DNA of 64,000 nt, taken from Portibacter marinus (GTDB lineage: Bacteria; Bacteroidota; Bacteroidia; Chitinophagales; Saprospiraceae). The position numbers and the translations under genes are program-made. Shown here in pieces: positions 2,977 to 29,345 of this stretch. The stretch's first letter is position 1, and every line of letters begins with the position of its first letter. The DNA lies in the NCBI RefSeq assembly GCF_021533195.1, contig NZ_JAJNKB010000002.1, forward strand, positions 434,001 to 498,000, read 5' to 3'. The notes under the pieces are model-generated. The model saw only the letters and a program-made list of their open reading frames with translations, was not told where the DNA came from and did not search any database.

Positions 2977-4632
2977 TTACTCTGCCATCAGGACTCTTGC
3001 ATTCTCCATGGCCGCTTCAGAAGGTGGATCTCCACTCAGCATTTTTGCAATTTCCACAGTTTTATCTTCTCCTTCTAGCACTTCCATTTTTGTAAAACTT
3101 CTGTCCTGACTGTTCTCTTTGAATATCCTGTAATGCTTTTCTGCTTTTGATGCGATTTGTGGTGAATGGGTGATGTTGATGATCTGGTGTGAACTGGAAA
3201 GTTGCTTGATCATTACACCCATTTTTTGACTGATAGCCCCGGAGACTCCGCTATCTATCTCATCAAAGATAAGGGTGGGTAGTTTAACTTTTTTGGCCAA
3301 TTCAGATTTGATGCAAAGACTTAATCTGCTTAATTCCCCCCCAGAAGCCACTTCCTTGATCTCCTGCAATCGGGCACCCAGATTCGCAGAAAATAAAAAC
3401 TCAACAAAATCTTTTCCCGTCTCTGTGAATTCATCAAGACTTGTAATCTCTATTTGAAAGCGGGCATTTTCCATCGAAAGCTGGTGTAAATATTCTTGTG
3501 TAGCGTTATATAATTTGGGAGCAACTTTTTTACGATTTGCTGATAAATCATTGGCCAGCTTTGTCAATTCATTTTGCAAAGAGGCAATTTCATGCTCTAC
3601 TTTAATGATTTCTTCTCCGGATTGTTTAAAGCTCGAGATCTGGTCTGCAATTTCTTCCCATTTTGCAAACATTTCCTCTTCAGAATTTAAATGGTGTTTA
3701 GCTTGCAGGGCATAGGCTAAGTCAAGCTTTTCCTGAATAATCGTAAGCTTTTCAGGGTCAAGATCCGTTTTTTCAGATTGATCTAAAAAAGCGCTTGCCA
3801 ATTCTCTCAATTCTTCAATGAGGTCAAAGTACTTTTCTCCGAGTTTTTCGATTTCAGGATGAAAACCAGAGACCTTATCGATTTCATATTTTATTTCCTC
3901 CAGACCGCTTATGATTGAAGTTTCAGCCTCTTCTAAGGTATAAGCTGATTTAGACAAAACAGATTTAATCATCTCCGCATTCTCAAGCACTGCAACTTCT
4001 GACTCCCAGTCCTTTAACTGTCCTTCTTCCAGGGCAAGCTTTTCAAATTCTTCTAAATGATAGGATAGCAGTTCCTGGTCTTTTTCAGCTTGTAGTTTGG
4101 CTCTAATTAATCTATTGAGTTCCGATTTCTTAGCATTATAAGCCTGAAAGGTTTCTTGATATTGTAGCAAGAGCGCTGTGTTCTGAGCGTATGCATCCAG
4201 AAGTTCCAGTTGTACTTCTGGATTGTTAAGTCCCAATGTATCGAATTGCTGATGCATGTCAATCAGTTGAGAGCAAAGGTCACGTAGATCCTTAAGGTTG
4301 GATGGAGTGTCATTAATAAAAGCTCTGGATTTACTAGTAGGCAGTATCTCTCTTCTGATGATTAATTCTTGATCAAATTCCAGTTCTCTGCTAGCAAAAA
4401 AATGCTCTAATGGATACTCACTGATATCAAAAGTAGCTTCGACAATGCACTTTTTGTCCAGATCAAACAATACTTTTGTATCTGCACGATTACCCATCAC
4501 CAGCCCTAAAGCTCCTATTAAAATTGATTTACCGGCACCAGTCTCTCCTGTGATAATATTGAATCCAGTAGAAAAACTGATGTCCAGGTTGTCAATTATA
4601 GCGTAATTACTCACCTTCAGACTTCTGAGCAT
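2977..4632 (-). CDS. recN: DNA repair protein RecN
   Basis: RecN is an SMC-like ATPase that acts early at DNA double-strand breaks. The 551-residue protein has the Walker A motif GETGAGKS at 29-36, a long central coiled-coil region (about 150-370), the ABC signature SGGE at 430-433, Walker B LIFDE at 454-458 and a switch histidine in THSPQ near 488. Length matches the family (about 550). It begins with ATG 39 bp after the TPR membrane protein gene and precedes fabI by 41 bp. No sign of LexA-type control was seen upstream. Confidence 0.95.
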   Translation of the reverse strand: MLRSLKVSNYAIIDNLDISFSTGFNIITGETGAGKSILIGALGLVMGNRADTKVLFDLDKKCIVEATFDISEYPLEHFFASRELEFDQELIIRREILPTSKSRAFINDTPSNLKDLRDLCSQLIDMHQQFDTLGLNNPEVQLELLDAYAQNTALLLQYQETFQAYNAKKSELNRLIRAKLQAEKDQELLSYHLEEFEKLALEEGQLKDWESEVAVLENAEMIKSVLSKSAYTLEEAETSIISGLEEIKYEIDKVSGFHPEIEKLGEKYFDLIEELRELASAFLDQSEKTDLDPEKLTIIQEKLDLAYALQAKHHLNSEEEMFAKWEEIADQISSFKQSGEEIIKVEHEIASLQNELTKLANDLSANRKKVAPKLYNATQEYLHQLSMENARFQIEITSLDEFTETGKDFVEFLFSANLGARLQEIKEVASGGELSRLSLCIKSELAKKVKLPTLIFDEIDSGVSGAISQKMGVMIKQLSSSHQIINITHSPQIASKAEKHYRIFKENSQDRSFTKMEVLEGEDKTVEIAKMLSGDPPSEAAMENARVLMAE

Positions 4633-4671
4633 AGACCATTCAAGTTTGGCACAAAAGTAAGCAAAATAAGA

Positions 4672-6606
4672 TTACATCCTTAAATTTTCAATGCCTCCAT
4701 TGAATTGAAAACCAAGTTGTCTTGCTTGATTTAAGTCTTGTTGAGCTGCAGCAGAATTACCGGTATTATAGTAATATTGAGCCCTATAAAAGTAATAGAC
4801 CCCCATATTGGGGTTCATTCTGATGGCCTGATTGATATTGGGTAAGGATAGATCCCATAGACCAGATAACATTTGTGCATTGGCCAGATTGGCCCACATA
4901 TTGGCATTGTTCGGGTCAAGTCTCAAAAACCTATTGATATCAGCAATTTCGTTTTGATATTGTCCCAATTGATGATAAACGATACTTCTGTTAAGATAAA
5001 TGGTCGTATTGTTAGGATCTAGTTCGCTGGCCCGGGTCAGATCCTGCAGTGCACTATTAAGATCATTTAATCTGGCATAAGTAGCCCCTCTATTCATATA
5101 ATATTCTCCGTTTGTCGGTTCAAGCGCGATGGCTTGGTTGTAGTCACGAAGTGCCATTAATATGGTATCACGGTTTTGTGATTTAAAGAACAGTTTGGCT
5201 CTGCTATTAAATGGTCCGGGTTTGTTTTCACCTAATGATATGGCTTTATTGTAATCTTGCAATGCAAGACGATCGAATCCTGAATCTCTATAGTAGTTGG
5301 CTCTATTTCCCCAGGGAAGAGTTGTGTTGGGATGATACTTGATGACATGTGACCAAAGTGATGCACTGTTTTCCCATATTTTATTCTGCTGATAAGTGAT
5401 ATAAGCTATAGCAACTAAGTACAAAGAGACAATGACATTGATTATAGTTCGGTTTTTTGGAGAGGAGGCCCATTTTTGCAGGTAGTAGGCCAGGGCATAT
5501 CCAAATCCGAAGTAAGCAATGTAAGTAAATCGGTCAGCTTGAAATCCTTGACCTGCACCCAGGATCTGCAATAGAAAAAATATATTGAAAGTAAAAAATG
5601 CAATACCAAAAACCAGATTTTTCCATTCTTTGATATAAGCCCATATGGTAAAAAGAACAATACCAATAGCCGGAATCATAGAGAGATAATGTATTATAGA
5701 CAATTGAGGAGGGTATGGATAAAGGGGAATAAGCCGATAGGGTACAAAAAACTTAATAAAATAGACAACATAAGAAAAAGACCCTACAAAAAGTCGGTCA
5801 TACCATGCGTAATCTACAGATGAATTGAGAGAGCCTTGTTGTCTTAAAAAATAGATACCTAAGAGTCCAATAAAAATTGAAATCAAAAAGTAAAACCACT
5901 TCTCAGTGATTCGTTTAAAGATTATTTTCCGTCCCAGAAGGTAGTCTACAGCCAACATTGACAATGGCAGGGTGACAGCCTGAATTTTAGATAGCCCGGA
6001 CAGAAGAAACAAGACCATTATTTTAATCAAATGCTGATTCGGCTTTTTGTTTTTAACTCCTAAAATGTAATAATAAAGTGCGGCCAGATAAAAGGCTCCA
6101 AAGAGTACATCTTTTCTTTCCGTAACCCATGCCACGGATTCAACCTTCATTGGATGTATTGCGAACAACAAAGTACAAATTACACTCGCCCAAAGATTTA
6201 AACCTAATGCTATCGAGATTCTAAAAACAAAAAAAATACATAGAAGATGAAGCAGCAAATTATCTAAATGCCAGTAAAAGGGCTGATCCAATCCATAGAT
6301 TACATTTTCAAGTGCAAAAGTCCAAATGGAGAGCGGGTTGTAATTCCCGATTATAGGAGTTGAAAAAATCGCGGGTGTATTGGCAATTAAACTGGCAAAA
6401 TCAACCGAATGAACAACAAAGGTGTTGTCGTAAAAATTTCGATCATCATCCCAATTCACAAATTCATTCTGCAGGCTGGGAAGAAATACCAGTACTGCCA
6501 ACAGTGTAACTCCTATTATAGCGTACCAATGATTTTTTGAGAAATGGCTTTTATTTTTTTTTAAAGATGGCCTCCTACTGACTCTCTTTGACTTACTCTT
6601 TTGCAT
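4672..6606 (-). CDS. GT-C-like multi-spanning membrane protein with TPR repeats
   Basis: A 644-residue inner-membrane protein. The first 25 residues are strongly basic, followed by a membrane segment and a loop with an acidic cluster (NWDDDRNF, about 52-59). About ten further hydrophobic helices run to about residue 410, then a C-terminal block of TPR repeats (about 430-630; several YLNRS/YMNRG-type helices with A-x-DPN motifs). This matches TMTC/DUF1736-like proteins related to GT-C glycosyltransferases, in which an acidic pair in the first loop is catalytic. Transfer of a sugar from a polyprenyl carrier to a protein is a possible role but is inferred. It lies between a DUF5686 gene and recN. 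Confidence 0.75.
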   Translation of the reverse strand: MQKSKSKRVSRRPSLKKNKSHFSKNHWYAIIGVTLLAVLVFLPSLQNEFVNWDDDRNFYDNTFVVHSVDFASLIANTPAIFSTPIIGNYNPLSIWTFALENVIYGLDQPFYWHLDNLLLHLLCIFFVFRISIALGLNLWASVICTLLFAIHPMKVESVAWVTERKDVLFGAFYLAALYYYILGVKNKKPNQHLIKIMVLFLLSGLSKIQAVTLPLSMLAVDYLLGRKIIFKRITEKWFYFLISIFIGLLGIYFLRQQGSLNSSVDYAWYDRLFVGSFSYVVYFIKFFVPYRLIPLYPYPPQLSIIHYLSMIPAIGIVLFTIWAYIKEWKNLVFGIAFFTFNIFFLLQILGAGQGFQADRFTYIAYFGFGYALAYYLQKWASSPKNRTIINVIVSLYLVAIAYITYQQNKIWENSASLWSHVIKYHPNTTLPWGNRANYYRDSGFDRLALQDYNKAISLGENKPGPFNSRAKLFFKSQNRDTILMALRDYNQAIALEPTNGEYYMNRGATYARLNDLNSALQDLTRASELDPNNTTIYLNRSIVYHQLGQYQNEIADINRFLRLDPNNANMWANLANAQMLSGLWDLSLPNINQAIRMNPNMGVYYFYRAQYYYNTGNSAAAQQDLNQARQLGFQFNGGIENLRM

Positions 6607-6678
6607 AATCTGACGTTATGACATTAAAGATATAGATTTCTTTAATATATACCTTTTAGGAGTTAAGTCCGAGATTTA

Positions 6679-8814
6679 TTATTTGAATAGATAACCGATG
6701 GTGAGTTGGATATTATGGCCCATCAATAAGCTGTTTGAAAATTGTAAATCATCGCTCGTCACAGAAATACGATCAGTGGGTAATTCAAGTCGCTCTCTTT
6801 TCTTAAAAATCCAACTGTTTTCCTTAAAAAAAACATATTGTCTTTGTGAATAAGGAAGGTAGTAGGACCCTCTCAAATATATTTCTTTGTTTCTATTTAG
6901 CTCTATGGACATTTCACCCGTAAGTTTTAAGGATCTAAGTCTGCTACCATAGGCTATTCTTACAAAGTCGGTATTGAAGTTTTTACTTCCTATTAAGATT
7001 CGGTCTTGCAAGTTTTCCGCAGAACCAAGGTTTCTGCCATATCTCATTCTACTATGTTGCGCAGAAAGCTTTAGGAATACTGGTCTCTGCCTACTCAAAT
7101 TGAATTGAACACCAAGACCCGAAGCAGACTCTTTGTAAATGGATCTTCCAAAATCGAGTGCTCCGCCAAATCTCAAAAACCATCTTTCATTAATAACAAA
7201 GTTTAAATCAGCTGCACCTATGATTTCGAATTCTCGCGAATTTATGGTATTGTCCACACTCAACAATGGCTCTTTGCCTTCTTTTTCAAAATAGGAAACA
7301 GCAAGCTGACGCTGTGGAGTAGATAAAAGGTGGCTGCCAATCCCAAACATGGTTGAGGAACTAAACCTCTTGGGTCTTTGTCTTTGGATGCCAGGTTCTC
7401 CGATTGAGATGTCCCGCATATCAAACTCCTCCTCATTTTCAAGTGCCTTCTGCTCAGCTTTTTCAATTCTCTTTGCGATTTCTAAAGAATCTCGCAGCTG
7501 AATAATCTTGCTCATTCGTTCAGGAGCAAAAATCTTTTCTGATTCTTGAGCGCTTTTATATTGCTGCATACTTTCCGTAAGCTTGTCGCTCATCGGTACA
7601 ATATTGTAGGATTTCCAAAAATCTTCGTCGTAGGTACCTGTCATATCTACAAACTCTTCTCCTCTTTCCAAACGTTCTAAGTAAGGAATCTTTTCCGCTC
7701 TTCCTGTTTCAATTTCTGTAATCTTAATCTCATTAGAATAGATGCCTCCACTTTTCCGACCTCCTTCTCTTACAGCATCACTGAAGTACCACTTACCATC
7801 CACATTTTGATAGTTTACGATGTATTTATTGAAAGTCCATACACCGCTATATAATGGGTAATCATCATATTTTTTAAGTCCATAAGGTGTGATTTCAAAT
7901 TCAGCACGAATGAAAGCATAGGAGTTTTTGTCAATGTACATTTTGCCTCGCATTCTTGCTTCTAGCTTATAACTCTTAGTAAAATTCAAAAGTTTATGAA
8001 ATAAGGACTTGGATTTGGCATTACGATTTTTGAGTGCGGGTGCGTCTGGATCAATATCAAAGCCTATGATGTATACCTCTCGTCCATTGAACGAAGTCAT
8101 ATTTTCTACCCAATAACGATAGGCAGGAAAATATTCCTCGTCAATAAAGTCTTCTCTGTTTTTCACAAAATCGAACCTGTGTGCTGCCATGTGTCCGGAA
8201 CTAAACCCTCCTCTTACAATGGTATCAAGAGGGTTTTCCATGTTGATCTTTCTGCCTTGTATAAGACTAACAAATCCTTCTTTCTGATTTTCATAACTGG
8301 TTTTATATACATTCAGGACCCCTTCAGCCAGATATACATACTCGTCCGATTCATCCGTTCTCGACTCGCGATAAAAGGCTGTAGCGGAGTTGGCTTTAGA
8401 AGGATAATTCGTAGGAATTCTAGAAATTGCTTTTCGTACGATATTTTCTACAGCACTTTCATCAATAATCTGGACTTCAGATAGTTGATATGCGGTGGGA
8501 TTTAGTTTAATAGTTGCCGGACTCTTGACTTCACGGAGGGGCATGGTGAATCTTTCGTAACCTATTACCGACACCATCAAGTTTGAGCCTGCGTAATAAT
8601 CTGGAATCTTGAAAAGGAAATTACCATCAGAGCTTGAAGTTGTGCCAATACCTCGATGAGGTATACCTATGTTAGCATAAGGAATAGGCTCATTGGTATC
8701 CTTATCTACTAATTTTCCATGTATGATTTGATAACCCTGCCCATTTAAGGAAAAACTAAAGGTTGTGACGAGTAGTAAAAGTAGTAAAAATCTCATGTAG
8801 ACGAATGCGTTCAA
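6679..8814 (-). CDS. DUF5686 and carboxypeptidase-regulatory-like domain outer membrane protein
   Basis: A 711-residue exported protein. A signal peptide (about residues 1-25) is followed by a carboxypeptidase-regulatory-like beta-sandwich (about 27-110, starting IIHGKLVDKDTNEPIPYANI), then a large region typical of DUF5686 proteins, found in Bacteroidota and often annotated with TonB-linked outer membrane proteins. The last 200 residues alternate polar and hydrophobic residues and end in an aromatic/basic tail (TIGYLFK), consistent with outer-membrane beta strands. Its substrate is unknown. It is followed 72 bp later by the TPR membrane protein. Confidence 0.75.
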   Translation of the reverse strand: MNAFVYMRFLLLLLLVTTFSFSLNGQGYQIIHGKLVDKDTNEPIPYANIGIPHRGIGTTSSSDGNFLFKIPDYYAGSNLMVSVIGYERFTMPLREVKSPATIKLNPTAYQLSEVQIIDESAVENIVRKAISRIPTNYPSKANSATAFYRESRTDESDEYVYLAEGVLNVYKTSYENQKEGFVSLIQGRKINMENPLDTIVRGGFSSGHMAAHRFDFVKNREDFIDEEYFPAYRYWVENMTSFNGREVYIIGFDIDPDAPALKNRNAKSKSLFHKLLNFTKSYKLEARMRGKMYIDKNSYAFIRAEFEITPYGLKKYDDYPLYSGVWTFNKYIVNYQNVDGKWYFSDAVREGGRKSGGIYSNEIKITEIETGRAEKIPYLERLERGEEFVDMTGTYDEDFWKSYNIVPMSDKLTESMQQYKSAQESEKIFAPERMSKIIQLRDSLEIAKRIEKAEQKALENEEEFDMRDISIGEPGIQRQRPKRFSSSTMFGIGSHLLSTPQRQLAVSYFEKEGKEPLLSVDNTINSREFEIIGAADLNFVINERWFLRFGGALDFGRSIYKESASGLGVQFNLSRQRPVFLKLSAQHSRMRYGRNLGSAENLQDRILIGSKNFNTDFVRIAYGSRLRSLKLTGEMSIELNRNKEIYLRGSYYLPYSQRQYVFFKENSWIFKKRERLELPTDRISVTSDDLQFSNSLLMGHNIQLTIGYLFK

Positions 8815-10380: not shown

Positions 10381-12999
10381 ATGAAGGCAAAGGTCGTGAG
10401 GGAGAAGTTCTTGGATTTTTTCGAACAAAGACAACACAAAGTAGTTAGTTCTGCTCCCATCGTACTGAAGAATGATCCCACGTTGATGTTCACTAATGCT
10501 GGAATGAATCAGTTCAAGGACTATTTTTTAAATAATGCTGTTAGTCCCAATAAACGAATAGCGGATACCCAGAAATGTCTTCGTGTAACCGGAAAGCACA
10601 ACGATCTGGAAGATGTAGGTATCGATTCCTACCATCACACGATGTTTGAGATGCTTGGAAACTGGTCGTTCGGAGATTACTTTAAGCGCGAGGCTATAGA
10701 TTGGGCGTGGGAATTGTTAACTGATGTCTATGGAATAGATAAAGACTCCCTTTATGCTACTGTTTTTGTGGGTGATGCATCTGATGGCTTAGAGGCGGAC
10801 AATGAGGCTTATGAAATGTGGAAAGATCACTTGCCTGAAGAAAGGATTTTGTTTTTCGACAGAAAGGATAACTTTTGGGAGATGGGTGAACAAGGTCCGT
10901 GTGGTCCATGTTCTGAAATTCATGTGGACATTCGATCTGATGAGGAAAAAAAGCAGCAATCAGGCGCGGAACTGGTTAATATGGATCACCCCCAAGTGAT
11001 AGAAATCTGGAATCTTGTTTTCATACAATTTAACAGGAAAGCGAATGGGACACTTGAGGATCTTCCGGAAAAACACATTGACACTGGTATGGGATTTGAG
11101 CGTCTTTGTATGACCTTGCAGGGTAAGACTTCTAACTATGACACAGACGTCTTTTCGGGTTATATAGAAATGGTTGAAAAATTATCTGGTATCACCTACA
11201 CCGGAAAATATGATGGAAGTTCAAAGTCCGATATTGCCATGCGGGTCATTGTTGATCATATCCGTGCGGTGTGTTTCGCTATAGCAGACGGTGAAATGCC
11301 GTCTAATACCGGAGCTGGTTATGTCATCAGAAGAATTTTAAGACGAGCGGTTCGATACTACTATTCTTTTCTTGAAATCACAAGTCCTTTACTACATCAA
11401 CTTGTACCCAAGCTAGCTGAAGATTTTTCCAGTGTATTTCCTGAATTAAAGGCACAACAAGAGTTTGTTAAAAGGGTCGTTTTGGAAGAGGAGAAATCTT
11501 TTTTAAATACTTTGGAAGGTGGACTCAAAAGAATAGAGCAACTGAATTTATCGGACAATAGGATTACTGGAGACGAGGCTTTTTTATTGTATGACACTTA
11601 TGGTTTCCCCATTGATTTAACCAGATTGATTGCAAGTGAAAAGGGATGGGAACTCGACGAAAAAGGATTTGAAGTAGCATTGAAAGCACAACAGGAGCGA
11701 TCAAGAGCTGATGCTCAAAGATCTGTAGGGGATTGGCATACCATTCAGGAAGGGAATGTGGTATTTGTGGGGTATGACCAACTCGAGGTGAAAGATGCAA
11801 GGGTGCTGAAATACAGAACAATCAAGGATAAGGATGGGCAGCATATTCAGTTGGTGCTGGATAAGACTCCTTTCTATGCAGAAGGTGGTGGGCAGGTTGG
11901 CGATAAAGGCACTTTGAGGATCGGTCAGGATTTAATTAAGGTTTTGGATACTCAAAAAGAGAATGATCTCATTCTACATTACGTTGATCGATTACCTGGC
12001 GACTTGACAAAGCCGGTTGAAGCGCGAGTACAGAATAAAAGACGTGCATTGACTGAGAATAATCATACGGCCACTCATTTGCTGCATGCTGCATTAAGAA
12101 AAGTTTTAGGAGATCATGTTACCCAGAAAGGTTCCCTGGTCAGAGATGAAAATTTGAGATTTGACTTTGCACATTTTTCAAGAATGAGCGAGGCTGAAAT
12201 TAAGGAGGTTGAAGATATCGTTAATCAGAAAATACGTGAAAATATATCTCTGGAAGAAGCCAGAAATATTCCTATCGCGGAAGCTAAGGAATCGGGAGCG
12301 ATGATGCTGTTTGGTGAAAAGTATGGCGACAATGTTCGAATGATTACTTTTGACAAGGATTATTCTGTGGAGCTATGTGGTGGATGTCACGTCAATGCTA
12401 CCGGGGAAATAGGTTTGTTTAAGATCATCAGTGAAACTGGTATCGCTGCAGGAGTTCGAAGAATAGAAGCTATAACGGCAAATCGGGCAATGGAATATGT
12501 GAATGATAAATTAGACACTCTTGATCAAATTAGTAATATGTTCAAATCTTCCGGTAATCCGGCGGAATTAGTAAGTAAATTACAAGAGGAGAACAAAGCA
12601 CTGAAAAAGAAAATTGAATCCTTGTTAGCAGAGAAAGCCGGGGATCTACAGAGTGATCTGCGTCGTCAAATAGAAATGGTCAATGGTGTTAATTTTATCG
12701 GCACAAAGCTACCCATAACGGATAGTAAAGCAGCTAAAACATTGGCTTACAACCTGGAAAAAGAGATTGGTAATGTTTTTATCATTTTCGGAATAGAAGA
12801 TAATGGCAAAGCACAGTTGATGATAACGATAAGTGAAGTGTTGACCAAGGCAAAAGGGCTTCACGCCGGAAACATGGTTAGGGAACTCGCTAAGGATATA
12901 AAAGGGGGAGGAGGGGGACAACCCTTTTTTGCTACTGCAGGTGGTAATGACCCCGGAGGACTTGATATTGCTATCAAGAAAGCGAAGGAAATGCTCTAA
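10381..12999 (+). CDS. alaS: Alanine--tRNA ligase
   Basis: AlaS charges tRNA-Ala with alanine and edits mischarged serine/glycine. The 872-residue protein is full length. The class II aminoacylation domain opens with the usual FFEQRQHKVVSSAP and contains HHTMFEMLGNWSFGDYF. The editing domain zinc ligands appear as HTATH (about residue 561-565) and CGGCH (about 663-667). The C-terminal DHHA1 oligomerisation domain ends with the glycine-rich GGGGGQP motif. It starts with ATG, is monocistronic and ends at a hairpin terminator at 13088-13122. Confidence 0.97.
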   Translation: MKAKVVREKFLDFFEQRQHKVVSSAPIVLKNDPTLMFTNAGMNQFKDYFLNNAVSPNKRIADTQKCLRVTGKHNDLEDVGIDSYHHTMFEMLGNWSFGDYFKREAIDWAWELLTDVYGIDKDSLYATVFVGDASDGLEADNEAYEMWKDHLPEERILFFDRKDNFWEMGEQGPCGPCSEIHVDIRSDEEKKQQSGAELVNMDHPQVIEIWNLVFIQFNRKANGTLEDLPEKHIDTGMGFERLCMTLQGKTSNYDTDVFSGYIEMVEKLSGITYTGKYDGSSKSDIAMRVIVDHIRAVCFAIADGEMPSNTGAGYVIRRILRRAVRYYYSFLEITSPLLHQLVPKLAEDFSSVFPELKAQQEFVKRVVLEEEKSFLNTLEGGLKRIEQLNLSDNRITGDEAFLLYDTYGFPIDLTRLIASEKGWELDEKGFEVALKAQQERSRADAQRSVGDWHTIQEGNVVFVGYDQLEVKDARVLKYRTIKDKDGQHIQLVLDKTPFYAEGGGQVGDKGTLRIGQDLIKVLDTQKENDLILHYVDRLPGDLTKPVEARVQNKRRALTENNHTATHLLHAALRKVLGDHVTQKGSLVRDENLRFDFAHFSRMSEAEIKEVEDIVNQKIRENISLEEARNIPIAEAKESGAMMLFGEKYGDNVRMITFDKDYSVELCGGCHVNATGEIGLFKIISETGIAAGVRRIEAITANRAMEYVNDKLDTLDQISNMFKSSGNPAELVSKLQEENKALKKKIESLLAEKAGDLQSDLRRQIEMVNGVNFIGTKLPITDSKAAKTLAYNLEKEIGNVFIIFGIEDNGKAQLMITISEVLTKAKGLHAGNMVRELAKDIKGGGGGQPFFATAGGNDPGGLDIAIKKAKEML

Positions 13000-24675: not shown

Positions 24676-25644
24676 TTAGTTTTTAATTTCACCTTTTGAA
24701 TTTCTAAATTTTGAGAAATCCTTATTCACAGCTATACTGGCATTGATTTCGTACCCAATCAGCAAGATCATGCAATTAAATTGAATCCATACCAAAACGA
24801 TAATCAACCCTCCTATCGTCCCATAAATCTTGTTATAGGCTCCAAAATTATTGACGAAAGCAGCAAATGCTAAAGAAAGAATGACCGTGAAGATCGTTGC
24901 TGCGGTAGCCCCCGGACTAAAATAATTGAAACGCTTAATAGTGGGTGCTCCATAACGATACAGAGAACTTATTAGTGCATGCGAAGTGATTAATACCAGA
25001 ATCCACCTTCCTATATTGAGCAAAATTCTGGAGGCTGCATCGATATTAAACAAATCGAATACGTAGTCCAAAATAACCTTTCCCAAAACCACTGTGGTCA
25101 ATGATATTAATAAGAAAAATCCAAGGAGGAAGGTCAATTTCACTGCCGTCCATTGTCGATTCAGATATGATCTTTTTTTAAAAGTTTCGGTATAGCTCTT
25201 TTCGAAACCTTTCATCATTGCTGCCACCCCATTTGATGTAAAAAAGAGTGCCAAGACAAATCCTAATGTAAAAAGTCCTCCTCGAGGAATCGATACAACA
25301 TCAGAAATAATCTGATTAATGTACGTGCTGGCTTCTGTAGGTAATAGGCTTTCTATCGAACTTTGGATGGTCGCCATGTAATCTGCGGTGACTGGAAATA
25401 GTGGTAGTAAAGTGAAGAAGAAGATGATGGCTGGAAATAATGCCAGGAAAAAGCTGAACGCCATTGAATTGGCTCGGGTGTTGATGTCATCCTGCTGCGA
25501 TTCTTTAATTACAAATCTGGTGATGTCATAGACAGGAATGCCTTCGAAACCGTAGAAACTAGTCTTCTTCGTCCAAATGAGGAGCCGACGAATGAATGTT
25601 AGTTTAGAAAGATAGCCCCATATGTCGAATTCTTTAAGATTCAA
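24676..25644 (-). CDS. YihY/virulence factor BrkB family membrane protein
   Basis: A 322-residue inner-membrane protein with about six helices and the family pattern: ANSMAFSFFLALFPAIIFF, where the first core helix follows an ITRFVIKES segment, then ALFFTSNGVAAMM and GAYNKIYGTIGGLIIVLVWIQ at the end. Once annotated as RNase BN in error; the function of the family is not settled. The 11-bp overlap with the thioesterase gene at its start indicates one transcription unit. Confidence 0.88.
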   Translation of the reverse strand: MNLKEFDIWGYLSKLTFIRRLLIWTKKTSFYGFEGIPVYDITRFVIKESQQDDINTRANSMAFSFFLALFPAIIFFFTLLPLFPVTADYMATIQSSIESLLPTEASTYINQIISDVVSIPRGGLFTLGFVLALFFTSNGVAAMMKGFEKSYTETFKKRSYLNRQWTAVKLTFLLGFFLLISLTTVVLGKVILDYVFDLFNIDAASRILLNIGRWILVLITSHALISSLYRYGAPTIKRFNYFSPGATAATIFTVILSLAFAAFVNNFGAYNKIYGTIGGLIIVLVWIQFNCMILLIGYEINASIAVNKDFSKFRNSKGEIKN

Positions 25645-26047
25645 AATAAGGTTTTAATTTTTCAATGATGATTTCAGGAGTATCAATTCTCCGGGAATCA
25701 CTTCGCTCTAAAAAAAACAGTCTAACGATACCACTGTTCAAAATTTTACGTGATTCATCGTAGATTTCTGTCCGGAAAACGATTTTTTCCAATGGTAGTT
25801 TTGCAATAGTGGTTTCCAGTGTCAACATATCATCATACCTGGCTGGTCTGATAAACCGTGTTTCCATAGATAATACTGGCATCAGAATATTGTGCTTAGA
25901 TTCTAATTCTGCATAGTTCAAACCAAGATTACGCATAGCCTCCACTCTTCCGATCTCGTAATATCTTGCGTAGTTACCATAATAAACATATCCCATTTGA
26001 TCTGTTTCAGCATACCTGACTCTTACCTGGGTTGTATGTGTATACAT
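25634..26047 (-). CDS. Acyl-CoA thioesterase, hotdog fold (YbgC/4-HBT type)
   Basis: A 137-residue single hotdog domain starting at the ATG at 26047, which places the first strand directly before RVRYAETDQMGYVYYGNY. The aspartate in ETDQMG is the catalytic residue of the 4-hydroxybenzoyl-CoA thioesterase/YbgC family. An ATG at 26083 would add 12 residues and overlap the deiminase gene. It hydrolyses acyl-CoA thioesters; the substrate cannot be told from sequence. It lies between arginine deiminase and a YihY gene. Confidence 0.9.
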   Translation of the reverse strand: MYTHTTQVRVRYAETDQMGYVYYGNYARYYEIGRVEAMRNLGLNYAELESKHNILMPVLSMETRFIRPARYDDMLTLETTIAKLPLEKIVFRTEIYDESRKILNSGIVRLFFLERSDSRRIDTPEIIIEKLKPYFES

Positions 26048-26052
26048 GATTT

Positions 26053-27306
26053 TTACTTTCTGGATATAGGGCAGGTCATACAATGTGATCCTCCACGCGC
26101 CCTTGATAGTTCATTGGATGGAATATGGATAATGGTTTTACTAATTTTATCCACTTTAACCGCTCCACTTTTGATATTTTGTAGGAGATCGTATGCTTTG
26201 ATGATATTGTATCCAGCTTTTTTAAATGCGTGATCAGTGACTGTGTTTCTATCATAAGTGATGGCTACTCCGGATTTGAGAGCGACAAGATTACAACCAT
26301 CTGTCCACTGCTCTCTTTCCTGATATGGACTTCTACCGTCGCCGGCAAAGATGAATTTGATATCCGGATTTATTTCAGCTTCGAAAAAACGCTTCACAGA
26401 AGAGTATTCTGCGACGTCACCATTGGATTTATGAACAAAAACATTGGAACTGTTTCCATCATAAACAATCGGTTTGTACGCTACAATTTCGTCTTCACTA
26501 ATCATCGTGAATAAGGTGTCAATATGCATATACGAACGGTCATCCGGAATATTGATGATCACCACATTCTTCACCACATTTTTCTTAAATAGAGTATCTT
26601 TTAAAAGATGTACGCCATGCATGGACGTCCTTTCCGAGCATCCAATAAGCAGATAATCTTTGTTGATAATCATGACATCTCCTCCTTCAAGAGAAACATG
26701 TTGACCCTGCCTTGAAGGGGGGAAGAGATTTAAGTCATTGAGGTTGATAATTTGGTCCTTATCCCTCAATGTCCTGAAAATCGGATGTCTCCAGAATATA
26801 AATCTGGTGAGCACATTTTCGCGGTGACGTGCTGCTTTTGAAGCTTTTGTGATGACCACGTGGTCATTGACCACTACTGCTATATCTCTCGTGAAAATGA
26901 AGTTAGGTATGGGATCGAATAATATGAAGTCTTCATTTTTTAAATATCCAGTGATTAGAACTTCTGAAAGTTCTGGAATTTCAAGTGCTTTCATTTTTTC
27001 GCCGAACGAGTCAGGCAATTCCTCATAATCCTGCACTCTATCAATGATCAAATTTTTATTGTCCGGATGATCCTTAATGGTTTCTGTAAGTAGATCGGTA
27101 ATCTCAAGTACATTTTTAGGTCCAACGAATGCTTTAAGTATATCAGTAAGCACATCATGCTCAGCTTGCATCTTAGGCAGAAAGACAATATCATCAAACA
27201 ACAATTCCTCCGCTCGTTTCGGACTAACCCTTGAAATTCCTGAATCGGGTCTATGTATTATTACCTTCTCAAGTTTGCCAATTTCTGAACTCACTGAAAG
27301 ACTCAT
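26053..27306 (-). CDS. Arginine deiminase family protein
   Basis: A 417-residue guanidino-group-modifying enzyme. The active-site set is complete: FTRD with D140, EGGD with E207 and D210, H261 in MHIDTLF, and the nucleophile C409 in GGSHCMTCP close to the C-terminus. Arginine deiminase converts arginine to citrulline and ammonia. No arcB or arcC neighbour is present, so an ATP-producing deiminase pathway is not shown here and a biosynthetic or ammonia-releasing role is equally possible. It heads a minus-strand unit with the thioesterase gene (5 bp gap) and the YihY gene. Confidence 0.9.
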   Translation of the reverse strand: MSLSVSSEIGKLEKVIIHRPDSGISRVSPKRAEELLFDDIVFLPKMQAEHDVLTDILKAFVGPKNVLEITDLLTETIKDHPDNKNLIIDRVQDYEELPDSFGEKMKALEIPELSEVLITGYLKNEDFILFDPIPNFIFTRDIAVVVNDHVVITKASKAARHRENVLTRFIFWRHPIFRTLRDKDQIINLNDLNLFPPSRQGQHVSLEGGDVMIINKDYLLIGCSERTSMHGVHLLKDTLFKKNVVKNVVIINIPDDRSYMHIDTLFTMISEDEIVAYKPIVYDGNSSNVFVHKSNGDVAEYSSVKRFFEAEINPDIKFIFAGDGRSPYQEREQWTDGCNLVALKSGVAITYDRNTVTDHAFKKAGYNIIKAYDLLQNIKSGAVKVDKISKTIIHIPSNELSRARGGSHCMTCPISRK

Positions 27307-27430: not shown

Positions 27431-28075
27431 ATGTCAATGTTTAAAAGGCTTAAGTCCGTATTTATTGTTGAAGACGAGGATTATGTTCCCACTGAGATAG
27501 CTGAGGATGAAAGCAAGGAGAAAAAGGAAGCCAATATCCCTGTAAATGAGAATGCAAAAGCTTCAGATAAATTTGTAAATAGCTTGCTTAGGGCAATTGA
27601 ATCCAATAATTTAGAAGGATTTGACTATTTGGAATACAAGCAATCACTTAAATCGTTGTCCTCCATGGATATGGATGAGTCAACCCGGTTTAATTCTGCT
27701 TTTGCTATGGCTAAAACTATGGGTGCTGACAAAAAAGCATTGATGGATTCAGCAATGCATTATCTAAAAGTTTTAGAGAATGAAAAAGGCAAATTTAATG
27801 ATGCCTATGAAAAGCAACAGCAAAAACAAGTCATTGCTAGACAGGATAAATTGACTGCACTCGAGTCCAGTATTTCTAAAAAAGAAGCACAAATTAAGAA
27901 GTTACAAGAAGAAATAAAGCAGTCTAAAAAAGAGTTAGAAATACGGAAAAATGAAATTAGTGAAGCATCCGAAAAGGTAGCTAGGACAAGGGATCAATTT
28001 TATGCATCTTTTTCCAAAGTGGCTGATCAGATTACAGCAGATGTTGACCGAATGAAAAAATACTTGAATTCATGA
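27431..28075 (+). CDS. Coiled-coil protein, partner of PspA-like gene
   Basis: A 214-residue soluble protein of unknown family. The N-terminus is acidic and probably disordered (about 10-45), the middle is helical (45-110), and the last 90 residues form a long charged coiled coil (about 120-205, rich in K, E and Q). No signal or membrane segment. Its stop overlaps the start of the next gene in an ATGA, so the two are co-translated. By context it could be a cytosolic adaptor or regulator of the membrane-anchored PspA-like protein; this is an inference. Confidence 0.75.
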   Translation: MSMFKRLKSVFIVEDEDYVPTEIAEDESKEKKEANIPVNENAKASDKFVNSLLRAIESNNLEGFDYLEYKQSLKSLSSMDMDESTRFNSAFAMAKTMGADKKALMDSAMHYLKVLENEKGKFNDAYEKQQQKQVIARQDKLTALESSISKKEAQIKKLQEEIKQSKKELEIRKNEISEASEKVARTRDQFYASFSKVADQITADVDRMKKYLNS

Positions 28076-29094
28076 CCGAAGAATATAAAAAGAAATCATT
28101 TTGGAAAAGGCCTGAGGGTAAAACAGGTATTTTCTTCATCGTTGCCTTATTGATTGGTGGTGGAATACTTGCTTCTGCATTCATAAGTGCATTGATATCC
28201 TTTGTGACTTCCACAGTTGGGATGATCATTACTCTGTTGGCCCTGGGTGTGATTATTTTTACAGCGATAGATCCTAAAGCTAGAGGCCTTGTAGGTTATA
28301 TGTATAAGAGTGTGATGAGATGGATTACTGGACTTTTTATTCAAATTGATCCTATCGGTATTCTCAAAAATTACGTTGAGGATCTGAGGGACAACCTTAA
28401 GAAAATGAACCGTCAAATCACTCAACTGAGAGGGCAGATGCACAAGTTGAAGGAAATGATCATCAACAATAAAAAGGAGATAGATAATAATCTGAGTTTA
28501 GCCAGCAAGGCAAGAGATAACAATAACAATGCTGTAATGGTGTTGAAGAGTCGAAAAGCGGGTAGGTTGAAAGAGTCAACGATGAGATTAGAGGACCTTT
28601 ACAAGAAAATGGAGGTTTTGTATCGGGTTCTTGGAAAGATGTATGAGAACTCTCAGATAATGAAAGAGGATATAGAAGATCAGGTGGAAGTCAAAGAGCA
28701 GGAGCGTAAGGCGATTTTGGCCAGTAATTCAGCGATGAAATCCGCCATGAATATTATAAGTGGGAATAAAGATAAACGGGAAATGTTTGACAGAGCCCTA
28801 GAGGCCGTGGCAGATGATGTCAGCCAGAAAGTAGGTGAAATGGAGCAATTCATGGAGGTTTCACAAGGATTTATGCAATCTCTGGATCTAAAGAATGGAA
28901 TATTTGAAGAAGAGGGCTTGAAAATGTTAGAGAAATGGGAAAATGAAGGTATGTCTATTTTGCTAGGAGATGATAAAGCAAAATTGCTGGTCCAGGCCAA
29001 TAATGATGAAGATGTATTGGATTTAGGAGCACCCATTGCTAAACCTGAAATGGCCACAAATCGAAAGAACCAATACGATAACTTCTTCGAATAA
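28072..29094 (+). CDS. Membrane-anchored PspA/ESCRT-III-like coiled-coil protein
   Basis: A 340-residue protein. Two hydrophobic helices (about 18-42 and 46-66) anchor it. After a linker comes a DP-x-x-x-L motif (93-97) that begins a long charged helical region (about 95-270). This matches the order of PspA/IM30 proteins: short N-terminal membrane contact, then DP plus a helical hairpin with an Ala/Asn-rich turn and a later helix pair. The difference is true membrane helices in place of an amphipathic one. A gene-specific C-terminus (275-340) ends NQYDNFFE. Role in membrane stress or remodelling is inferred; a database search is needed to confirm homology. Confidence 0.6.
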   Translation: MTEEYKKKSFWKRPEGKTGIFFIVALLIGGGILASAFISALISFVTSTVGMIITLLALGVIIFTAIDPKARGLVGYMYKSVMRWITGLFIQIDPIGILKNYVEDLRDNLKKMNRQITQLRGQMHKLKEMIINNKKEIDNNLSLASKARDNNNNAVMVLKSRKAGRLKESTMRLEDLYKKMEVLYRVLGKMYENSQIMKEDIEDQVEVKEQERKAILASNSAMKSAMNIISGNKDKREMFDRALEAVADDVSQKVGEMEQFMEVSQGFMQSLDLKNGIFEEEGLKMLEKWENEGMSILLGDDKAKLLVQANNDEDVLDLGAPIAKPEMATNRKNQYDNFFE

Positions 29095-29296
29095 GTAAGG
29101 CCGGAAAATCCATTATTTAAGGCAATTTTGATAGGTGCTATGTGCAACCTACTAAGCATCGTTATACTACCTTAATCAAAATTTTCATGTGGTCAATGTT
29201 AAGTATTTAAAATTTACCTGCTAGAGCATATTTACAACTTTTTCTGAAAACCATCATTTACGAGAATCGGGAACAAATGGTCATATAAATAAAAAA

Positions 29297-29324
29297 ACCG
29301 ATGACAAAATTAATGGCCATCGGT
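29297..29324 (-). terminator. Rho-independent terminator of the DUF3276 gene
   Basis: ACCGATG (29297-29303) and CATCGGT (29318-29324) pair perfectly. On the minus strand the stem is followed by seven T residues. It lies about 20 bp past the stop of the gene at 29346. Confidence 0.75.
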
Positions 29325-29345
29325 CAGTATATATCTTTAAGTAAA

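Follow-up and report, generated by a model that had tools for sequence, protein, structure and literature searches.

Two overlapping genes in a 64,000-nucleotide stretch of the Portibacter marinus genome (contig NZ_JAJNKB010000002.1, positions 434,001-498,000; hereafter the window) most likely form the scaffold-only remnant of a transporter-linked, membrane-anchored operon of the PspA/Snf7 type. The downstream gene, B (28072-29094, 340 residues), encodes a membrane-anchored PspA/ESCRT-III-like protein, and the upstream gene, A (27431-28075, 214 residues), encodes its conserved soluble partner, whose fold is not recognised. Both lie on the plus strand, and the stop codon of A (28073-28075) overlaps the start of B at 28072 as ATGA (28072-28075); the reading frames, their lengths and this overlap are as a preliminary description of the window had given them. 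The best explanation as a whole, which we consider probable, is a hairpin-anchored PspA-type scaffold, B, with a partner, A, whose associated importer was lost in the lineage of the window. This account is built on computed PspA homology, a hydrophobic anchor, gene order and conservation.

By profile comparison, rather than by the score of its single sequence, B is a real, distant homologue within the PspA/ESCRT-III superfamily. PspA_IM30 (PF04012) is the Pfam family most often matched by the homologues of B (28 of 48 at E ≤ 1, best 4.1e-8). When 40 relatives were searched in six frames with PF04012, 10 genomes had a match at E ≤ 0.001: one match is a canonical PspA (genome G023, 132 bits), and the other nine, all below the cut-off, fall on B genes in eight cases and elsewhere in one (G007:C9). 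In the opposite direction, the B profile matched 27 of 395 genomes sampled from the phylum, corresponding to 12 genes for B or its divergent form B′, 11 PspAs and four other short matches; the 11 PspAs, which are also found by PF04012, were matched with E-values of 1.2e-9 to 7.5e-6 and aligned from profile position 67-76. Profile-profile alignment by hhalign scored B 68-286 at 92.5% (E 4.9e-7) against a set of 20 PspAs, and B 72-287 at 94.7% (E 5.8e-8) when 31 further canonical PspAs were added. The controls for these two sets were 0.3% and 1.4% for the reversed profile, 10.7% and 0.5% for the best of 30 column shuffles, and 11.4% and 12.1% for partner A. The 20 PspAs were taken at places found by PF04012 (about 64-79 bits) that had no match to the B profile, with two rows carrying untrimmed upstream residues; the hidden Markov models (HMMs) that served to pick them were built from canonical PspAs and from PspAs that the profile of B had found. 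A 27-row set, consisting of the 20 PspAs and seven other open reading frames (ORFs) from those stretches that the picking HMMs had let through, gave 80.8%, or 88.0% with the canonical PspAs added (reversed 0.2% and 1.8%; 30 shuffles at most 1.3%), and its register agrees at helix alpha-H0 and at the DP motif. HMM matches in both directions and hhalign thus show profile homology of B along the PspA domain.

This domain is preceded in B by a membrane anchor. Residues 16-70 are hydrophobic throughout and almost devoid of charges, with a mean hydropathy of 1.8-2.4 in 19-residue segments starting at positions 16-52 and maxima at 19 and 49. The AlphaFold model of B (48 homologues; mean predicted local distance difference test score, pLDDT, 73) contains helices 14-36, 38-46, 48-66, 68-89, 94-149, 153-226, 235-270 and 280-310. 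Since the first three of these split the hydrophobic stretch, residues 14-66 (28111-28269) are predicted to form a hairpin of two membrane helices, in agreement with the two real membrane helices proposed before. Lysines and arginines in 49 B proteins average 3.9 before the first membrane helix (residues 1-18), 4.3 after the second (67-86) and 0.1 in the loop between them (37-47), and by the positive-inside rule both ends of B are probably cytoplasmic (N-in/C-in). The juxtamembrane helix 68-89 (28273-28338) aligns with PspA alpha-H0 in profile and structure comparisons, with a hydrophobic moment of 0.29 versus 0.40 for one PspA alpha-H0. The DP motif DPIGIL (residues 93-98, 28348-28365) opens the hairpin domain; it had been noted earlier and is borne out by at least 90% conservation of D93, P94 and I95 among the 48 homologues. 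The helical core (residues 94-310, 28351-29001) follows the order alpha1, alpha2+3, alpha4 and alpha5 in model and profile, the last two (235-270 and 280-310) being predicted at low confidence; the predicted sequence of helices from 68-89 to 280-310 follows that of PspA/IM30, as previously described. B ends in a conserved aromatic and acidic tail, NQYDNFFE (residues 333-340, 29068-29091). Of the 49 B proteins, 46 have the pattern Y..[LF][LF] among their last 14 residues and one of the remaining three is cut by a contig end; the four divergent B′ proteins end in DIF.

The predicted hairpin fold of B appears to include the alpha1-alpha2/3 hairpin of the PspA/ESCRT-III superfamily. VIA-align superposed residues 93-230 of the model on residues 24-161 of Vipp1 8qhx (Z 11.0, root-mean-square deviation (rmsd) 1.8 Å over 138 residues) in a register that agrees with the sequence alignment, and residues 69-226 on residues 2-157 of Vipp1 7o3w (Z 11.5, rmsd 3.6); the Snf7 structures 5fd9 and 5j45 gave a Z of 11.5. 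Because long helices match easily, the weight is borne by the sequence evidence. A PDB sequence search with the A and B profiles returned coiled-coil background only.

A and B belong together well beyond the window. The 80 named loci carry titles mostly of Saprospiraceae, Lewinella or relatives, the closest match being Portibacter lacus (B 91% identical). A lies directly upstream of B in 67 of these loci, is missing in 11 and is undecidable in two, and it is also found immediately 5′ of B in the distant families f17, f24 and f25. As the two genes recur as neighbours in several families, their pairing is more than chance, and the co-occurrence for which the preliminary description had asked is found in relatives. 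Of the 40 relatives, 26 have B and 24 have A; within the 25 genomes of the window's own family, B is found in 24, A in 22 and two B matches in 19. B without A occurs in G010 and in G013, where B is cut at the contig end. In the phylum sample, the window B sequence matches 13 genomes at E ≤ 0.001, two of them doubtful (G336 and G337). Within the genus, the sequences of both pairs remain close, at 83-92% identity for B and 61-85% for A. Twelve pairwise comparisons of these genes gave a nonsynonymous rate (dN) of 0.06-0.30 and a synonymous rate (dS) that is undefined in 11 (taken as saturated) and 2.2 in one; their ratio is not computable, and the low dN against such dS indicates that A and B are under purifying selection.

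The second A-B pair of the window genome lies on contig 22 at 643-645 kb (locus L071, 8376-9948), where gpsA and yidC flank it at one end and a gene for a Na/Pi cotransporter at the opposite end, and its A lacks the long N-terminal extension. Copy 2 adjoins gpsA/yidC in L071, L079 and L081 and lies near an SbcC-like gene in L074, L078 and L102. The latter gene, of about 1,220-1,290 codons, forms one cluster, and its L074 copy (3620-7276) matches SbcC/RAD50-type AAA domains. The tree of A separates copies 1 and 2 (21 and 17 tips), whereas that of B does not (largest pure clades 21/26 and 10/17), so that no clean duplication history emerges for B.

G023, which alone in the family has no B, is also the single genome of the 25 whose PspA exceeds the Pfam cut-off; this one exception suggests a replacement of PspA by B in the family. 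Taken further, A-B could be the lineage's functional substitute for classical PspA, that is, a stress-induced sealer of membrane leaks. We regard this as possible but rather doubtful. While B occurs without a PspA over the cut-off in 24 of the 25 genomes, one exception is thin evidence, and three genomes contain both kinds of protein, G200 having B together with a PspA of 133.7 bits, and G119 and G322 having PspA together with B′; moreover, no stress regulator was recognised adjoining the pair in the window. Mutual exclusivity of B and PspA was dropped as a proposal because of these three genomes. Two observations concern the PspA loci themselves. In the one genome of the family that has neither A nor B (L072, 7410-8679), the canonical PspA gene adjoins a gene for a 136-residue protein that looks YbjN-like by eye. 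At L246, L247, L250, L252, L258, L260 and L263, a second ORF with a weak match to PspA profiles (16-33 bits) lies next to the PspA gene or overlaps it; some of these ORFs may be a separate coiled-coil gene and others wrong-frame readings.

Many relatives carry a longer gene order behind the pair. A gene for a membrane-anchored fusion of a binding protein with OmpA starts at most 300 bases from the end of B in 61 of the 80 named loci (absent in 12, undecidable in seven), and genes for an ATP-binding cassette (ABC) permease and ATPase then follow in 38. The earlier term 'two-gene module' accordingly fits the window's lineage but not these relatives. The fusion protein of L075 matches NMT1 (1e-10) and OmpA (2.6e-19) in Pfam. 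The binding-protein label is weak outside the window's family: Pfam sees only OmpA in L099, L101 and L305, and the region before OmpA in L099/L101 compares with that of L075/L077 at 8.0% by hhalign and at E-values down to 2.8e-4 by blastp. A plasmid search with one binding-protein/OmpA protein gave no match. The complete order A, B, OmpA fusion, permease, ATPase is found in f24 (L099, L100 and L103) and likewise in f17 (L101). In f12 (L077) the fusion gene alone follows B, with no permease or ATPase found there, and in f25 (L097, 8332-9396; L098, 10347-11429) another anchored protein takes the place of the OmpA fusion, the L098 copy having a weak match to Ppx/GppA (E 3.4e-4, below the cut-off). 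A search with the L101 fusion protein revealed three more operons in f20, with divergent A′ and B′ genes, and 188 genomes of the class yielded a further four B′ genes; seven of the eight B′ loci contain A′, B′, OmpA fusion, permease and ATPase in that order. In L305, L306, L307 and L319 the gene for the ABC ATPase is followed by an additional AAA+ (AAA_lid_6) gene, which could encode a disassembly motor for a B′ scaffold; the Pfam call was made on the L305 copy, and in L307 a 243-codon ORF lies between the two genes.

The window reads YihY, YbgC, deiminase, A, B, DUF3276. In L116 and L121 these flanking genes enclose A, B, OmpA fusion, permease and ATPase. The interval in which those loci carry three ABC genes between B and DUF3276 corresponds in the window to about 252 bases (29095-29345), in which tblastn finds nothing credible as a remnant (best E 0.16). 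Beside the window pair there are no genes for an ABC ATPase, a permease or a PBP-OmpA protein, and the L075 fusion protein has no match at E ≤ 1e-30 in G000, G001 and G002, the genomes of the window's genus. Several families have the longer operon, which makes a single loss a simpler assumption than its gain time and again; synteny and parsimony thus indicate that the window's lineage probably lost the three transporter genes.

The same gene order could be read without any scaffold polymer. A and B would then be accessories of an ABC importer, with B acting as a membrane-anchored coiled-coil clamp that clusters the permease and ATPase or couples them to the wall-tethered binding protein, without ESCRT-like polymers or remodelling, and the window copy would serve another transporter or be a leftover. 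The fusion gene after B, the permease and ATPase that follow it in 38 loci and the like order in seven of the eight B′ loci are as expected for such accessories. However, both A-B pairs are conserved in the window's genus without a match to the fusion protein at E ≤ 1e-30, copy 2 sits beside other genes (gpsA/yidC or the SbcC-like gene) and B is a PspA homologue, so that we consider an importer accessory unlikely.

Several results weigh against an anchored PspA-type scaffold. Alone, the window B sequence scores 14.9 bits against PF04012 (E 0.021), below the cut-off of 33.9; DUF2383 outranks PspA_IM30 in Pfam (E 0.0095, both below their cut-offs), and NCBIfam returns GrpE (E 0.0015, far below cut-off). 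The 31 canonical PspAs by themselves reach only 17.9% against B in hhalign, one of the 30 column shuffles rises to 10.7% against the PspA set, and a value of 94.0% was obtained with PspAs found by B's own profile and is for that reason not relied on. B′ aligns with B at 98.3% (E 2.5e-14) and with PspA at 5.2% at most. At the level of structure, Foldseek finds nothing for B at E ≤ 0.001, and its top rows mix Vipp1/PspA (8qbw, E 0.018; 7o3w, E 0.034) with BAR domains. VIA-align ranks BAR domains first (best Z 13.4, rmsd 3.6 over 188), a Z in the range where long helices match through arrangement alone, and the mean pLDDT of 73 goes along with a weak alpha4-5 region. As to the operon, A was not found in G010 and does not adjoin B in 11 of the 80 named loci, where no convincing A-like ORF was seen by eye among ORFs of at least 70 codons just upstream; 23 of the 61 fusion loci, 15 of them with at least 4.9 kb of downstream DNA, did not show the permease and ATPase genes together, and the possible motor gene is present in only four of the eight B′ loci.

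Some of these points could be taken to mean that the helical part of B is an unrelated coiled coil whose likeness to PspA is compositional, in keeping with the weak single-sequence score, the similar or better E-values of other helical families and the BAR domains at the top of VIA-align. Nevertheless, B scores 92.5-94.7% where reversed profiles reach 0.3-1.8%, 60 shuffles at most 10.7% and the coiled-coil partner A at most 12.1%, and sequence and model agree in register at alpha-H0, the DP motif and the hairpin, which makes a chance likeness very improbable. The profile check asked for at the outset thus did not place the helical part in an unrelated family, with the caveat that DUF2383 comes ahead in the single-sequence Pfam search.

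Partner A has no predicted membrane segment and a C-terminal helix of 112 residues, as expected from its earlier description as a soluble protein with a C-terminal coiled coil. Its AlphaFold model (mean pLDDT 89.5) consists of (i) a short N-terminal helix, MFKRLKSVF (residues 3-11, 27437-27463), followed by a low-confidence linker; (ii) three short helices, 46-58, 66-76 and 83-96 (residues 46-96, 27566-27718), which bear the conserved segment GFDYLEYK...DE.T..NSAFAMAKTMG (as a motif, GFDYLEFK...MDE.T...SAFA.A.TMG, the most conserved part of A); and (iii) a single long helix, 101-212 (27731-28066), that is probably a coiled coil. A motif resembling LKSLF occurs near the N-terminus in most homologues (30 of 43 A proteins by a loose pattern in the first 25 residues). 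The Pfam and PDB sequence matches on the long helix are coiled-coil background in which no family is recognised, and profile comparison of A with PspA gave no convincing similarity (1.3-12.1%). None of 38 Foldseek matches reaches E ≤ 0.001 and the best VIA-align Z is only 7.0, and the fold of A is therefore not assigned. It is probably a dedicated cytosolic coiled-coil partner of B. Toxic anion resistance systems of the TelA/XpaC type also join a coiled-coil protein with two membrane helices to a soluble helical one, and a TelA/TerB locus in G030, a genome of the same taxonomic order, includes such a membrane protein, but in 30 relatives PF10112 and PF05816 match neither A nor B genes at E ≤ 0.05, and a system of this type is hardly credible here. 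The G030 locus (L312, 2361-9928) contains a TelA gene, TerB-like proteins, the two-helix membrane coiled-coil protein and a Clp-like AAA gene.

As an anchored PspA-type scaffold, the pair would most likely work as follows. B would be a divergent ESCRT-III/PspA protein made integral to the inner membrane by a two-helix hairpin fused directly before alpha-H0, with its helical domain in the cytoplasm. Through the hairpin domain it may assemble laterally into a scaffold beneath the inner membrane, which would stabilise the membrane or the envelope machinery that it encloses; polymer formation and a role in stress would follow from its kinship with PspA. A might nucleate, cap or disassemble this scaffold. 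The ancestral operon was probably A, B, anchored binding protein with OmpA, ABC permease and ABC ATPase, placing a membrane scaffold beside a peptidoglycan-tethered importer; the window's lineage would have dropped the importer and kept the scaffold, together with a second A-B pair elsewhere in the genome. A more far-reaching version, quite unlikely in our estimate, holds that an anchored ESCRT-III protein with a dedicated coiled-coil regulator of unrecognised fold largely replaced soluble PspA across the family, that the importer scaffold turned into a free-standing two-protein scaffold in the genus, and that the tail of B acts like the MIT-interacting motif (MIM) of ESCRT-III, with A as its receptor.

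PspA and Vipp1 reach the membrane through a reversible amphipathic helix. B, with a helix at the place of alpha-H0 and yet a hairpin that would bolt it to the membrane, could show whether ESCRT-III assembly needs reversible binding. The operon of the relatives would provide a concrete link between an ESCRT-like scaffold and a peptidoglycan-tethered transporter, which a single sentence of 2024 had already suggested, and lineages with the scaffold but without the transporter could serve to separate the two functions genetically.

Compared with known systems, B shares with PspA/Vipp1 (IM30, PF04012) the DP motif and, in the model, the alpha1-alpha2/3 hairpin in register; a helix of B aligns with alpha-H0, and its low-confidence helices at the places of alpha4 and alpha5 come in the same order. 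It differs in its two N-terminal membrane helices, which set it apart from the soluble or peripheral PspA_IM30 proteins, in its extra conserved C-terminal tail, in its sub-cut-off Pfam score and in having no PspB, PspC or PspF genes recognised beside it. With eukaryotic and archaeal ESCRT-III proteins (Snf7/CHMP and CdvB) it has in common the hairpin core of the model, and its conserved C-terminal motif resembles, by analogy, the MIM of ESCRT-III; unlike them, B is hairpin-anchored and has no Vps4 gene recognised beside it. The Snf7 profile (PF03357) has no match on B in 12 genomes at E ≤ 0.05, in a search insensitive enough that no control genome passed the cut-off either. The preliminary description had held that the pair matches no described system. 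This did not stand: Ravi et al. (2024, mSystems, PMC11237479, section 18; example OGG56892.1) mention in one sentence that PspA and 'Snf7 homologs with a TM segment' (TM, transmembrane) may share operons with an ABC ATPase and a permease, together with a PBPB-OmpA protein and an AAA+ ATPase. The operon of the relatives fits that description in its ESCRT-III-superfamily protein with a membrane segment, of which the window B is one, in its transporter gene kinds and its OmpA-fused anchored protein, and in the AAA+ gene of four of the eight B′ loci. In contrast, the window pair lacks the transporter and AAA+ genes, and A has no convincing similarity to PspA; OGG56892.1 was compared by description only. 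A Salinibacter-type neighbourhood of PspA, Snf7 and a third coiled-coil gene (CBH24266.1; Ravi et al. 2024, PMC11237479, section 15), likewise set beside the pair by description, resembles it in that a PspA-superfamily gene adjoins another coiled-coil gene in a Bacteroidetes group. Among open-licence papers, which make this weak evidence, no experimental study, no family for A, no reduced two-gene form and no near-universal presence in one family was found.

The genes around the pair in the window lie on the minus strand: arginine-deiminase-family, thioesterase and BrkB/YihY genes 5′ of A-B and a DUF3276 gene and an ABC exporter gene 3′ (Pfam). PspB, PspC and PspF are not among these Pfam-annotated neighbours, the rest of the genome not having been searched for them, and the same annotation contains no AAA+ gene beside the pair. 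A defence library gave no match on A or B, and its matches on neighbours' proteins are generic OmpA, ABC and AAA domains. Elsewhere in the window, a weak Snf7 profile match (12484-12684; E 0.01, below the cut-off) falls within an 880-codon open frame and is probably coiled-coil background. The block of BrkB/YihY, thioesterase and arginine-deiminase-family genes (24676-27306) travels with A-B in many of the 80 named loci.

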